A DNA stretch of 12,914 nt from Nitrospiraceae bacterium (GTDB lineage: Bacteria; Nitrospirota; Thermodesulfovibrionia; Thermodesulfovibrionales; UBA9159), in assembly GCA_003453735.1 (NCBI GenBank), contig DMNE01000457.1, forward strand, positions 1 through 12,914, in the 5' to 3' direction. Under the pieces are notes generated by a model that did not search any database, was not told where the DNA came from, and saw only the letters and a list, made by a program, of their open reading frames with translations. The position numbers and the translations under genes are program-made. Each line of letters starts with the position of its first letter. Within the stretch, counting starts at the first letter, position 1. Of the stretch, positions 4,133 to 9,575 are shown piece after piece.

Positions 4133-4755
4133 TTATCAGGAGTTTAGTGGTCGGGCCGTTGCAGGCGAACTGTTTCATTATAGGGGACGAGAAATCGAGA
4201 AAGGCTATTGTCATAGACCCGGGGGATGAGCCTGACATAATTACGAAAGTGGTGGACAAGGAACGTCTCACTGTGGAGTATATTTTCTGCACCCACGCAC
4301 ACTTTGACCACGTGGGGGCGGTACCTGACTTGAAGAAAATCAGCCACGCAAAGATAGTCCTTCACAGGGATGAGCTAGAGATTTACTCTGCCGCGAAGGA
4401 TATGGCAGCTGTGTGGGGCTACGATCTGGATCCTCTCCCGACACCGGACTTGCTTGTTACTGACGGGGAGGAGATAAAAATCGGTTCACTCACGTTCACC
4501 GTGCTGCATACTCCTGGACACAGTCCCGGCGGGATGTGCCTTTTCGGTCAGGGCGTCGTCATTACCGGGGATACGCTTTTTGCCGGTGCGGTGGGACGGA
4601 CGGATTTCCATGGCGGAGACATGAAGAAACTGAAACAGTCGTTCGACAGACTCATGTCGCTTCCCCCTGATACGAAGGTTCTTACCGGGCATGGCCCGGA
4701 CTCCACCATAGCGAGGGAACGGTCAGAAAATTTCTTTCCCAAATTATTTACTTGA
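4129..4755 (+). CDS. MBL-fold metallohydrolase, glyoxalase II-like
   Basis: This 208-residue cytoplasmic metallo-beta-lactamase-fold hydrolase has the full two-metal site of the glyoxalase II/YcbL group: T-H-A-H-F-D-H at 55-61 (H56, H58, D60, H61), H131 in TPGHSPGG, D148 in ITGDTLF and H188 in TGHGP. Its size and lack of a C-terminal substrate-binding domain match the short YcbL-like proteins rather than classical GloB (about 250 residues). The natural substrate is therefore uncertain: a thioester of the hydroxyacyl-glutathione type or another small ester. The GGGGGGAG ribosome binding site lies inside the end of murJ, and the genes overlap by four bases. The stop codon TGA is embedded in the -35 of the next promoter. 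Confidence 0.85.
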   Translation: MIIRSLVVGPLQANCFIIGDEKSRKAIVIDPGDEPDIITKVVDKERLTVEYIFCTHAHFDHVGAVPDLKKISHAKIVLHRDELEIYSAAKDMAAVWGYDLDPLPTPDLLVTDGEEIKIGSLTFTVLHTPGHSPGGMCLFGQGVVITGDTLFAGAVGRTDFHGGDMKKLKQSFDRLMSLPPDTKVLTGHGPDSTIARERSENFFPKLFT

Positions 4756-4780
4756 CAAACATCTCATTTACTGGCATATT
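4752..4780 (+). promoter_or_regulatory. Sigma70-type promoter of the RRM-protein gene
   Basis: A perfect -35 TTGACA (4752-4757) and a -10 CATATT (4775-4780, four of six) are 17 bases apart, with an upstream TGG that gives an extended -10. The -35 overlaps the stop codon of the MBL-fold gene. The expected transcription start is near 4787, which leaves an untranslated leader of about 110 nt. Confidence 0.6.
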
Positions 4781-4818
4781 TACCTAATCATGGTGTCAGT
4801 CTAACAGGTATCAGCGGG

Positions 4819-4891
4819 TTCCTGAAAAATCTTAGATTAATTTGGGTACCCCTAACCCAAGGCAATAGCCTTGGGATTTTATTTTCAGGAG
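4819..4891 (+). promoter_or_regulatory. Structured mRNA leader with ribosome-site-masking stem, candidate RNA switch
   Basis: The leader of the RRM gene contains three nested or competing pairings. Stem P1 joins TCCTGAAAA (4820-4828) with TTTTCAGGA (4882-4890): nine Watson-Crick pairs, extended by a T-G pair at 4819/4891. Its 3' arm covers most of the AGGAGG ribosome site (4887-4892). Inside it, TTGGGT (4842-4847) can pair with ACCCAA (4855-4860). Alternatively CCCAAGGC (4856-4863) pairs with GCCTTGGG (4868-4875) around an AATA loop. The two inner stems share CCCAA and cannot form together. Such mutually exclusive folding next to a masked ribosome site suggests control of translation, by temperature or by the RNA-binding protein itself. 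The pairings are read directly; the function is inferred. Confidence 0.5.
4856..4885 (+). terminator. Intrinsic-terminator-like hairpin in the RRM-gene leader
   Basis: An eight-base-pair perfect stem (CCCAAGGC/GCCTTGGG, four-base loop) is followed at once by ATTTTATTTT. It lies downstream of the gene's own promoter and only 11 bases before the start codon, with the ribosome site after the U-tract. It is therefore better read as an attenuator within the leader than as the end of the murJ operon, although it could also stop read-through from murJ. Confidence 0.4.
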
Positions 4892-4896
4892 GAAGG

Positions 4897-5217
4897 ATGG
4901 GCACAAAACTTTACGTAGGAAACATTTCCTTTCAAGCGTCAGAAGATGACCTGAAAGACCTCTTTTCAAAAGCAGGAGAGGTTGTATCGACAAAAATGAT
5001 CACGGACGCTGCAACCGGCAGGTCCAGGGGATTTGCTTTTGTCGAGATGAGTTCCGATTCCGAGGCACAGAAAGCGATCACGCTGCTGAACGGCACCAGT
5101 TTCCTGACGAGGAATATCGTTGTCAGCGAGGCAAAACCTCAGGAAAAACGGGAGAGGGGACCAAGAGACAGAGAGCGGGAAGGTTTTGGCAATAGACGCC
5201 CGGGAGGAAGGAGATAG
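4897..5217 (+). CDS. RRM-domain RNA-binding protein
   Basis: This 106-residue protein has a single RNA recognition motif. RNP2 is LYVGNI at 5-10 and RNP1 is RGFAFVEM at 44-51, with the aromatic residues needed for RNA stacking (Y6, F46, F48). Residues 82-106 form a basic arginine/glycine/glutamate-rich tail ending in GNRRPGGRR, like the glycine-rich tails of cyanobacterial Rbp and other bacterial RRM proteins. Several bacterial members are cold-induced or bind mRNA; the target here is unknown. The AGGAGG ribosome site is four bases before the ATG and lies in a stem of the structured leader. The gene is monocistronic: its stop is one base from the stop of the convergent DUF89 gene. Family assignment is certain, cellular role open. 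Confidence 0.92.
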   Translation: MGTKLYVGNISFQASEDDLKDLFSKAGEVVSTKMITDAATGRSRGFAFVEMSSDSEAQKAITLLNGTSFLTRNIVVSEAKPQEKRERGPRDREREGFGNRRPGGRR

Positions 5218-7989: not shown

Positions 7990-8882
7990 TATCCCCTCAT
8001 CTCAGTCTTTACCGCAAGCCAGTAAACGACCCCGGTAACAAAGATCGCAGCTATCAGATAATAGATCTTCTCCGGTGACTCTTTCTGAAGCGTAGCAATC
8101 ATGGTTTCCCGGATAAAAGCTACAAGGGCAACCCCGACAAAAACGCTAATATGGAACTTTCCTCCCTTGAGATGATCGATCTCCGTGTTCATCAGCTCTA
8201 TCACAATCCAGAGTATCAATATAGAACCGAGCGACGTAATGATAGCATGTTCGAGATCTCCTGTCAGAAAATTTTGCACCGCATGAACCAAGAAATAGAC
8301 TACCCCAATCGATAATCCGATCAAGGCTAGAATAAGGACGAAGTTCATCCCCTTGGAAAAAGCCTCAGAGAAACTGATCAGGACATTCTTCACATGATAG
8401 GCACCGGAATAGGTCCTCAGCTCCTCTTCAATATAAGAAGAGGTGATGACATCAAGATTGATATCGAGTATTTTTTCGACAGCGATGATCGATTTTGCTC
8501 GTTCTTCGGAATCCTCTATGGCCTGATTGAGGACGCCGACACAATAGTTCCTGACAATATTCACCGCCCGGTTCATATAATGAGCCTCCACAAGGAACCT
8601 TACATGCGTCTGTCCTATCTTGATCAGTCTTTCGTAATACTGGCTACCATAATTGCCGGAAAAGAGATCGAGAAACCATTTTTTCTGTGAACCGAAGACA
8701 TGGCTCTTCCTCTTTTCTTCATCAAAGAATCTCGCGGTATCCGCCGTCATGATCATCCACGAGTGCAGTGCGTCCATAGCACCATCCATATTCGCTTCGG
8801 CAATTTCCTTCAGAGAACGGAGTCGCTGCTCGTCCTCCTCGGTGAAATTATAATGCCGCTTTATCTCTTTAAAGGACCGCAT
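7989..8882 (-). CDS. Protoglobin-PsiE fusion membrane protein (putative heme-based sensor)
   Basis: This 297-residue protein has two parts. Residues about 10-160 resemble a protoglobin / globin-coupled-sensor domain: HNFTEED-like entry, TARFF at 49-53, KKWFLDLFSGNYG at 67-79, then IKIGQTHVRF with H93 at the expected proximal heme-ligand position. Residues 178-293 contain four membrane helices (about 180-200, 213-231, 244-260, 274-291) and match the PsiE (phosphate-starvation-inducible E) family. The soluble domain should face the cytoplasm. The function of PsiE is unknown; a role in sensing O2, NO or CO and passing a signal to the membrane part is inferred. The gene begins 5 bases after the IMP cyclohydrolase stop with no clear Shine-Dalgarno, and its stop overlaps the purD start, so it belongs to the purine unit. 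Confidence 0.75.
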   Translation of the reverse strand: MRSFKEIKRHYNFTEEDEQRLRSLKEIAEANMDGAMDALHSWMIMTADTARFFDEEKRKSHVFGSQKKWFLDLFSGNYGSQYYERLIKIGQTHVRFLVEAHYMNRAVNIVRNYCVGVLNQAIEDSEERAKSIIAVEKILDINLDVITSSYIEEELRTYSGAYHVKNVLISFSEAFSKGMNFVLILALIGLSIGVVYFLVHAVQNFLTGDLEHAIITSLGSILILWIVIELMNTEIDHLKGGKFHISVFVGVALVAFIRETMIATLQKESPEKIYYLIAAIFVTGVVYWLAVKTEMRG

Positions 8883-8887
8883 AAGGC

Positions 8888-9481
8888 TTAATGATACTTC
8901 ACTTTGTTGAGATACTCTGCAATGACGGCGTCATATCGGGCAGTATGGGCAAATACCTTTCTTGCCAGATTGAATTTTCTCTCCCTGCTGAGGTCTCCCC
9001 GAGATGACTTCATTTCTGCGATTATAGATGAGTAATCATCGGGATCGACCACAACAGCCACATCCTGAAAATTCTTGGATGCAGCCCTCAGCATTGCGGG
9101 GCCGCCGATATCGATGTTCTCAATAGCCTCTTCAAACGTAACCGTTTGTTTCGAGATGGTCTCTTCGAACGGATAGAGGTTCACAACGACCATATCTATC
9201 AGCTTGATGCCTTGTTCTTCCATGTCCTCCATGTCCTTGGGATTGCTCCGCCTTGACAGGAGGCCTCCGTGGATCTTCGGATGGAGTGTCTTGAGTCTGC
9301 CGTCGAGCATCTCGGGGAATCCAGTATAATCAGATACTTCGATCACAGGGATGCCAGCCTCACGGAGGATCTTTGCAGTCCCTCCCGTTGACAAAATCTC
9401 AATTCCCATTGCCGAGAGAGTTCTTGCAAAATCTACAACCCCTCTCTTGTTCGAAACGCTGATGAGTGCCCTTTTTATCAT
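8888..9481 (-). CDS. purH: IMP cyclohydrolase, stand-alone PurH N-terminal domain
   Basis: The 197-residue protein is the IMP cyclohydrolase half of PurH, which closes the ring of FAICAR to IMP, the last purine step. Motifs: SVSNK at 8-12, STGGT at 31-35, [13 protein letters not shown] at 61-73, NLYPF at 101-105, NIDIGGPAM at 122-130 and AASKN at 133-137. Residues equivalent to the catalytic K66, Y104, D125 and K137 of vertebrate enzymes are present (K64, Y103, D124, K136). It stops after [11 protein letters not shown], exactly at the domain border. The AICAR formyltransferase half, about 320 residues in ordinary PurH, is absent, and the next gene is unrelated. This looks like a genuine split enzyme rather than a broken gene. 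AAGGAGG lies seven bases before the ATG. Confidence 0.9.
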
Positions 9482-9575
9482 GATACAGCCTCCTTAAAAA
9501 CATATGCAGTCCGGTTGTTTGCTTCTTCCCGCTTATAAAGGCCACTGCTCTTCCTTTGCCATTTTCTGGATGTCA

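Follow-up and report, generated by a model that had tools for sequence, protein, structure and literature searches.

A conserved terminator-like hairpin marks the leader of an RRM protein gene as a candidate transcription attenuator in Thermodesulfovibrionales

The RRM locus and its relatives

The window analysed here, positions 1–12,914 of contig DMNE01000457.1 from a Nitrospiraceae bacterium of the order Thermodesulfovibrionales, encodes a 106-aa RRM protein that scores 103.6 bits on NCBIfam NF058537 ('RNA-binding regulator'; cut-off 100). On the same strand, a metallo-beta-lactamase-fold gene ends upstream at position 4755, and ~100 nt beyond this end lies a terminator-like hairpin, P3, followed by a U-tract and the ribosome-binding site (Table 1). 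As judged from the position of a sigma-70-like promoter, transcription of the RRM gene would start near 4787, and the 5′ arm of a long-range pairing, P1, would thus be part of the transcript. The promoter pattern TTGACA-N16–18-CATATT is kept in 24 of 24 leaders from three families of the order (f1, f2 and f11; these and the other f labels used below are anonymous family labels), and under a looser pattern a promoter resembling it precedes 17 of 20 leaders in f13 and 10 of 17 in f10. A by-eye glance at the RRM leader also picked out a leader-peptide candidate at 4790–4804 (ATGGTGTCAGTCTAA).

Table 1. Coordinates of features in the RRM leader and of a related gene row elsewhere in the same genome
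Feature	Position	Strand	Remarks
Sigma-70-like promoter	4752–4780	+	TTGACA 4752–4757, 17-base spacer, CATATT 4775–4780, TG before CATATT
Upstream hairpin PA (GGGT/ACCC, CCTGAA/TTTGGG, AATC-TTA-GATT)	4816–4851	+	covariation; excludes P1
P1, 5′ arm TCCTGAAAA	4820–4828	+	no double-changed pair in 7 close relatives
Small hairpin TTGGG/CCTAA, abutting P3 in the P1 fold	4842–4855	+	minimum-energy fold of 4787–4896, 37 °C
Terminator-like hairpin P3, CCCAAGGC-AATA-GCCTTGGG	4856–4875	+	folding, conservation in 29 sequences, detector
U-tract ATTTTATTTT	4876–4885	+	strongly conserved in alignment A2
P1, 3′ arm TTTTCAGGA	4882–4890	+	overlaps U-tract and AGGA of ribosome site
Ribosome-binding site AGGAGG	4887–4892	+	one base past U-tract
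RRM protein gene, 106 aa	4897–5217	+	PF00076, E 6e-22; NF058537
RRM paralogue	9205–9510	–	genome G000 (that of the window), contig C166
rpsU	9011–9196	–	genome G000, contig C166
DEAD-box helicase gene	8066–8875	–	genome G000, contig C166

Protein searches for the RRM protein gave matches in 42 genomes when 61 genomes of the order were searched (E ≤ 1e-3), and in 114 genomes when the search was widened to 176 genomes of the order (E ≤ 1e-15). From part of the matching loci, 129 in number, leaders were extracted, 122 of which have a recognised start. The orthologue in each genome is the best-matching RRM gene, assigned by best match alone, and 29 leaders of such genes make up alignment A2. In both f7 genomes, tRNA-Sec genes (RF01852) lie near the RRM gene (L025, 187–280; L028, 278–371).

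A hairpin and U-tract before the ribosome site

Single folds of this leader give P3 a pair probability of 0.99–1.0 across 5–65 °C. Alignment A2 displays a block common to families f1, f2, f7, f8 and f11, which reads roughly CCCAGGGC-loop-GCYYTGGG-ATTTTATTTT-(N)GGAGG-start. A simple detector (stem, loop and T-rich tail) reported a terminator-like hairpin for 29 of the 30 leaders that precede best-matching RRM genes (f1 7/7, f2 16/16, f7 2/2, f8 3/4, f11 1/1). Over every RRM leader with a recognised start the count is 44 of 122, whereas shuffled sequences gave 20 of 610. Over the 29 sequences, 91.4% of P3 cells are paired, a value reached by none of 500 shuffles, and six cells are double-changed, as many as in a single shuffle out of 500. 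The number of pairs with a double change (three of eight) is not special, being reached by 40 of 500 shuffles and by slid versions of the stem, and within the f2 alignment no P3 pair has a double change. RNAalifold places P3 in both the 29-sequence and the f2 alignments; on the seven f1 leaders it picks the 4816–4851 hairpin but not P3, in whose place the 3′ arm of P3 is paired to the U-tract and ribosome site.

A hairpin this close to the start codon is rare in other genes. Seven relatives were surveyed over 400 kb: of 362 genes, 10 carry one that ends at most 40 nt from the start; seven of these are RRM genes, and the rate among the other genes is 3 of 355. A strict script run over the same 400 kb (L210–L229) called 16 strong intrinsic terminators, i.e. 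few, and at least five of them are RRM leaders as judged by the tail.

The hairpin is likewise rare in families f13 (2/20) and f10 (1/17), and the three leaders in question belong to a second kind described below. By eye, f13 leaders (e.g. L136, L138, L142 and L144) carry hairpins such as TATCCTG...CAGGA or TTCTG...CAGAA that have no terminator tail. In L172, L188, L205 and L034, a CCGC...GCGG hairpin with a T-run was seen by eye upstream of the RRM gene, which may represent a third kind of leader terminator or a property of the preceding gene.

In agreement with the sequence-only reading, which knew of no riboswitch class that the leader would fit, the window has no Rfam match at gathering score; the best weak match within 4700–5000 scores 15 bits where 75 are required, and a known riboswitch or leader family was rejected. 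We built a covariance model, R1, comprising hairpin, tail and ribosome site from 29 seed leaders. Over 176 genomes, its top 29 matches are its own seed RRM leaders (E ≤ 1.4e-8), followed by a gap to 1.3e-5, and over 395 genomes of the phylum all matches outside the order have E-values of 6e-5 or weaker. Of 19 weaker non-RRM places that were fetched, 11 sit just downstream of a cobalamin riboswitch (RF00174), and the remaining eight have no Rfam match. Examples of the former read ATCCTCAGGGC-loop-GCTCTGAGGATTTTTTATTTTAGGAGG and precede thiC-like, cobU-like (names given by eye from translations) and other genes. These riboswitch terminator platforms, from the same bacterial order, share with the RRM leader the arrangement of hairpin, U-rich tract and a GGAGG that precedes the start codon; unlike them, the RRM leader has neither an Rfam aptamer match nor an antiterminator pairing.

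The same conserved block might instead act at translation: the RRM protein would land on the hairpin and the AU-rich stretch and block ribosome binding, with termination incidental. We regard such an operator as unlikely, though several observations are in its favour. AUUUUAUUUU is strongly conserved, and most f13 leaders inspected by eye show a hairpin without a terminator tail. Moreover, AB-Elavl is described as preferring AU-rich probes (PMC9313427), and RbpB as favouring AU-rich sequences, often near the Bacteroides ribosome site, with a binding site in its own mRNA (PMC11697453). The U-tract of the window begins with an A and is interrupted by another, a feature that could have marked an RRM-specific signal. 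Yet A-interrupted U-tracts occur in 11 of the 16 strong terminators of the 400 kb and also in the cobalamin-riboswitch terminators, which speaks against the operator, and this candidate signal was rejected.

Upstream pairings and temperature

From the letters alone, the leader had earlier been read as a possible three-state RNA switch in which P1 would cover the ribosome site and an inner stem (TTGGGT at 4842–4847 with ACCCAA at 4855–4860) would compete with P3, a self-complementary segment at 4844–4851 adding a further option. All of these pairings exist, and the letters, including GGGTACCC at 4844–4851, are as then given. What stood of this observation is the conserved leader terminator; the switch built upon it did not.

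P1 covers the AGGA but not the whole of the AGGAGG at 4887–4892. The expected conservation and compensatory changes did not appear: pairing of any kind between the upstream leader and the U-tract plus ribosome site reaches p ≤ 0.05 in 2 of 28 leaders, about chance level (L004, p = 0.022; L025, 0.03; the window's own sequence, 0.06; L028, 0.116), and no compensatory change was found. For the window, dinucleotide shuffling of the upstream leader yields equally good pairing in 6% of cases. Among the seven close relatives, 78.6% of P1 cells are paired, compared with 77.2% after a one-column slide, and double changes number zero.

The inner stem fared no better as a competitor of P3. Its cells are paired in 54.8% of cases, 15 of 500 shuffles being as high and two slid versions equal, and at none of the temperatures computed does its pair probability rise above 0.0. 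Furthermore, 44% of upstream-leader shuffles pair with the 5′ arm of P3 as well as or better than this stem does, and a competing antiterminator of any kind is significant in none of the 29 leaders (p ≤ 0.05). The inner stem was accordingly rejected as an antiterminator.

The predicted partner that suits the 5′ arm of P1 better than P1 itself is PA, a hairpin left unnamed in the sequence-only reading. Double-sided changes occur at 7 of its 14 pairs and 81.3% of its cells are paired, in statistics from seven sequences with the structure taken from one of them; each measure is equalled in 2 of 500 shuffles, and versions with slid partners score lower on all of them. The small hairpin that abuts P3 in the P1 fold has a counterpart in the near relative L004, where TCGGG/CCCGA stands in its place; as a real part of the leader it is a weak, model-derived candidate. 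As a whole, the stretch 4787–4910 folds mildly better than its shuffles (z = –1.82; 7 of 200 as good).

Temperature was a further element of the earlier interpretation, in which the leader might be a thermosensor. When 4787–4896 is folded alone, the probability of P1 is 0.0, 0.29, 0.80 and 0.85 at 5, 25, 37 and 55 °C, respectively, so that cold would open P1. Adding 14 or 64 coding bases lowers it to 0.31 or 0.25 at 37 °C, with 0.77 or 0.83 at 55 °C, and thereby shifts the rise to 45–55 °C. In computed folds of the 29 leaders at 5, 20, 37 and 55 °C, exposure of the ribosome site rises in some, falls in others and stays flat in yet others. Given these mixed trends, no conserved thermosensor, i.e. 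no temperature-dependent exposure of the ribosome site shared among the 29 leaders, is seen in the computed folds.

It is thus very improbable that P1 and the inner stem form a three-state switch, or a thermosensor, by which the ribosome site is hidden. P1 does comprise nine pairs here and ten in L004, with similar pairing in L025 and L028, and it opens in the cold in this leader alone, but the chance-level frequency of such pairing, the near-equality of its slid version, the control-level inner stem and the want of a common temperature trend all speak against it. Of the earlier interpretation, the part that retains support is the attenuator.

Probable attenuation and a possible RNA-related regulon

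That P3 is a mere terminator of the metallo-beta-lactamase-fold gene, which lies on the same strand and has a co-directional counterpart in 7 of 7 f1 loci, is highly unlikely and was rejected: the RRM promoter sits between the end of this gene and the hairpin, and the hairpin persists where the upstream ORF lies on the opposite strand (f7 2/2, f8 3/3, f11 1/1, f2 9/15). In 15 of 28 loci, the first ORF encountered upstream lies on the opposite strand (ORFs of at least 80 aa with unrefined starts, a few of them doubtful), and in these the hairpin cannot serve that neighbour. In the window, P3 could nonetheless additionally end transcripts of the co-directional upstream gene.

Together with the cobalamin-riboswitch layout, the opposite-strand neighbours indicate that the hairpin is associated with the RRM transcript, where it looks like an attenuator platform. 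As far as sequence can tell, the attenuator option has in its favour a conserved terminator-like hairpin, a conserved promoter upstream of it, and an arrangement like that of the order's riboswitch terminators, the terminator lying between promoter and start codon. A mutually exclusive antiterminator, significant in 0 of 29 leaders (p ≤ 0.05), is usual but not universal in attenuators that use intrinsic terminators. That all 29 leaders leave the control step without one is a point against attenuation. So are the rarity of the hairpin in f13 and f10 despite their similar promoter, the ordinary number of P3 pairs with a double change, the RNAalifold choice on the f1 leaders and a U-tract that starts with, and is broken by, an A. 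On balance, we consider it fairly probable that the RRM leader is a transcription attenuator with a trans-acting input.

Under this model of attenuation, RNA polymerase would start near 4787 and first make the hairpin 4816–4851, before meeting the intrinsic terminator (4856–4885) directly ahead of the ribosome site. A fraction of the RNAs would stop there, yielding a leader RNA of ~95–100 nt, and others would continue into the RRM gene. Because no conserved competing antiterminator was found, readthrough would be set in trans, the input being either a protein that acts on the nascent leader or polymerase conditions. Since bacterial RRM proteins bind AU-rich RNA, the RRM protein itself would be the first candidate for feedback on its own leader, and such autoregulation is possible.

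Several known systems bear comparison. Protein-dependent choice at a terminator, as proposed here, is known from CspA-family antitermination, TRAP, Bgl/Sac and PyrR; these are described as using an antiterminator or anti-antiterminator (PMC4347634), none of which is conserved in the RRM leader. Cyanobacterial rbp genes, which are likewise RRM genes, have cold-regulated 5′ UTRs that contain conserved boxes, whereas excerpts of their description, with which we compared by account rather than by sequence, mention no terminator (PMC9333190). The cspA thermoregulator (RF01766) resembles our case in occupying the leader of a small RNA-binding-protein gene; in contrast, it has no match in the window, and its temperature-dependent exposure of the ribosome site has no shared equivalent here. 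In one relative (L148, 1–281), an RRM gene is closely preceded by a cspA thermoregulator element that scores 100 bits.

A second leader motif precedes other RRM genes of the order. It consists of an AACUUUURRAGUU hairpin followed by the terminator CCYCRGAGACUUURAAAGYCYCYGRGG-UUUUUUU, with examples in L154, L204, L173, L209, L031 and others, and, by coordinates, many of the genes behind it have rpsU next downstream. This motif is more sharply conserved than the RRM-leader terminator: in 18 sequences, 88.3% of cells are paired and 14 cells are double-changed (5.6 in shuffles), each value being matched by none of 500 shuffles. Four pairs have a double change, but 219 of 500 shuffles attain this number as well, and double-changed cells number 13 in one slid version. 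No Rfam family matched the motif above gathering score in the loci scanned.

A covariance model of it, R2, matched 43 places at E ≤ 1e-3, the 18 seeds included, spread over 40 of the 176 genomes. By coordinates, 36 of these lie directly before RRM genes; the other seven comprise two before RRM genes, three before DEAD-box helicase genes and two before bS21 genes, among which family models confirmed one helicase and one bS21. Over 395 genomes of the phylum, R2 added five places outside the order, four with RRM genes and one with a bS21-like gene (two of the RRM genes and the bS21-like gene were identified by eye).

In the genome of the window itself, an RRM paralogue, rpsU and a DEAD-box helicase gene follow one another in a row (Table 1), an order that recurs by coordinates in three further genomes (G001, G004 and G005). 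By-eye inspection of 15 helicase leaders revealed a terminator hairpin in three (L357 and L358 of f7, L359 of f11); when 24 helicase loci were searched, R2 matched one of these three leaders, weakly (E 0.017), and R1 none of the loci. Promoter-proximal terminators of other sequence also precede RRM, bS21 and helicase genes.

By extension, the RRM protein, bS21 and a CshA-like helicase might form one regulon throttled by promoter-proximal terminators, with the RRM protein or the helicase acting in trans on nascent leaders without an RNA antiterminator. The leader of the window would then be the solo-RRM branch, and the second motif, with its tandem hairpins that both have an ACUUURRAGU-like core, would serve the rest. 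This proposal is speculative and unlikely.

Among the papers listed in searches of an open-access library, no title or abstract opening describes an attenuator of a bacterial RRM gene. To our knowledge, little is known about the control of bacterial single-RRM proteins or about the RNAs they bind. The conserved leader terminator offers a defined target of ~110 nt for direct testing of feedback, and the second motif, found before genes for RRM proteins, bS21 and helicases, would join three genes of RNA and ribosome biology in one attenuation-controlled regulon.
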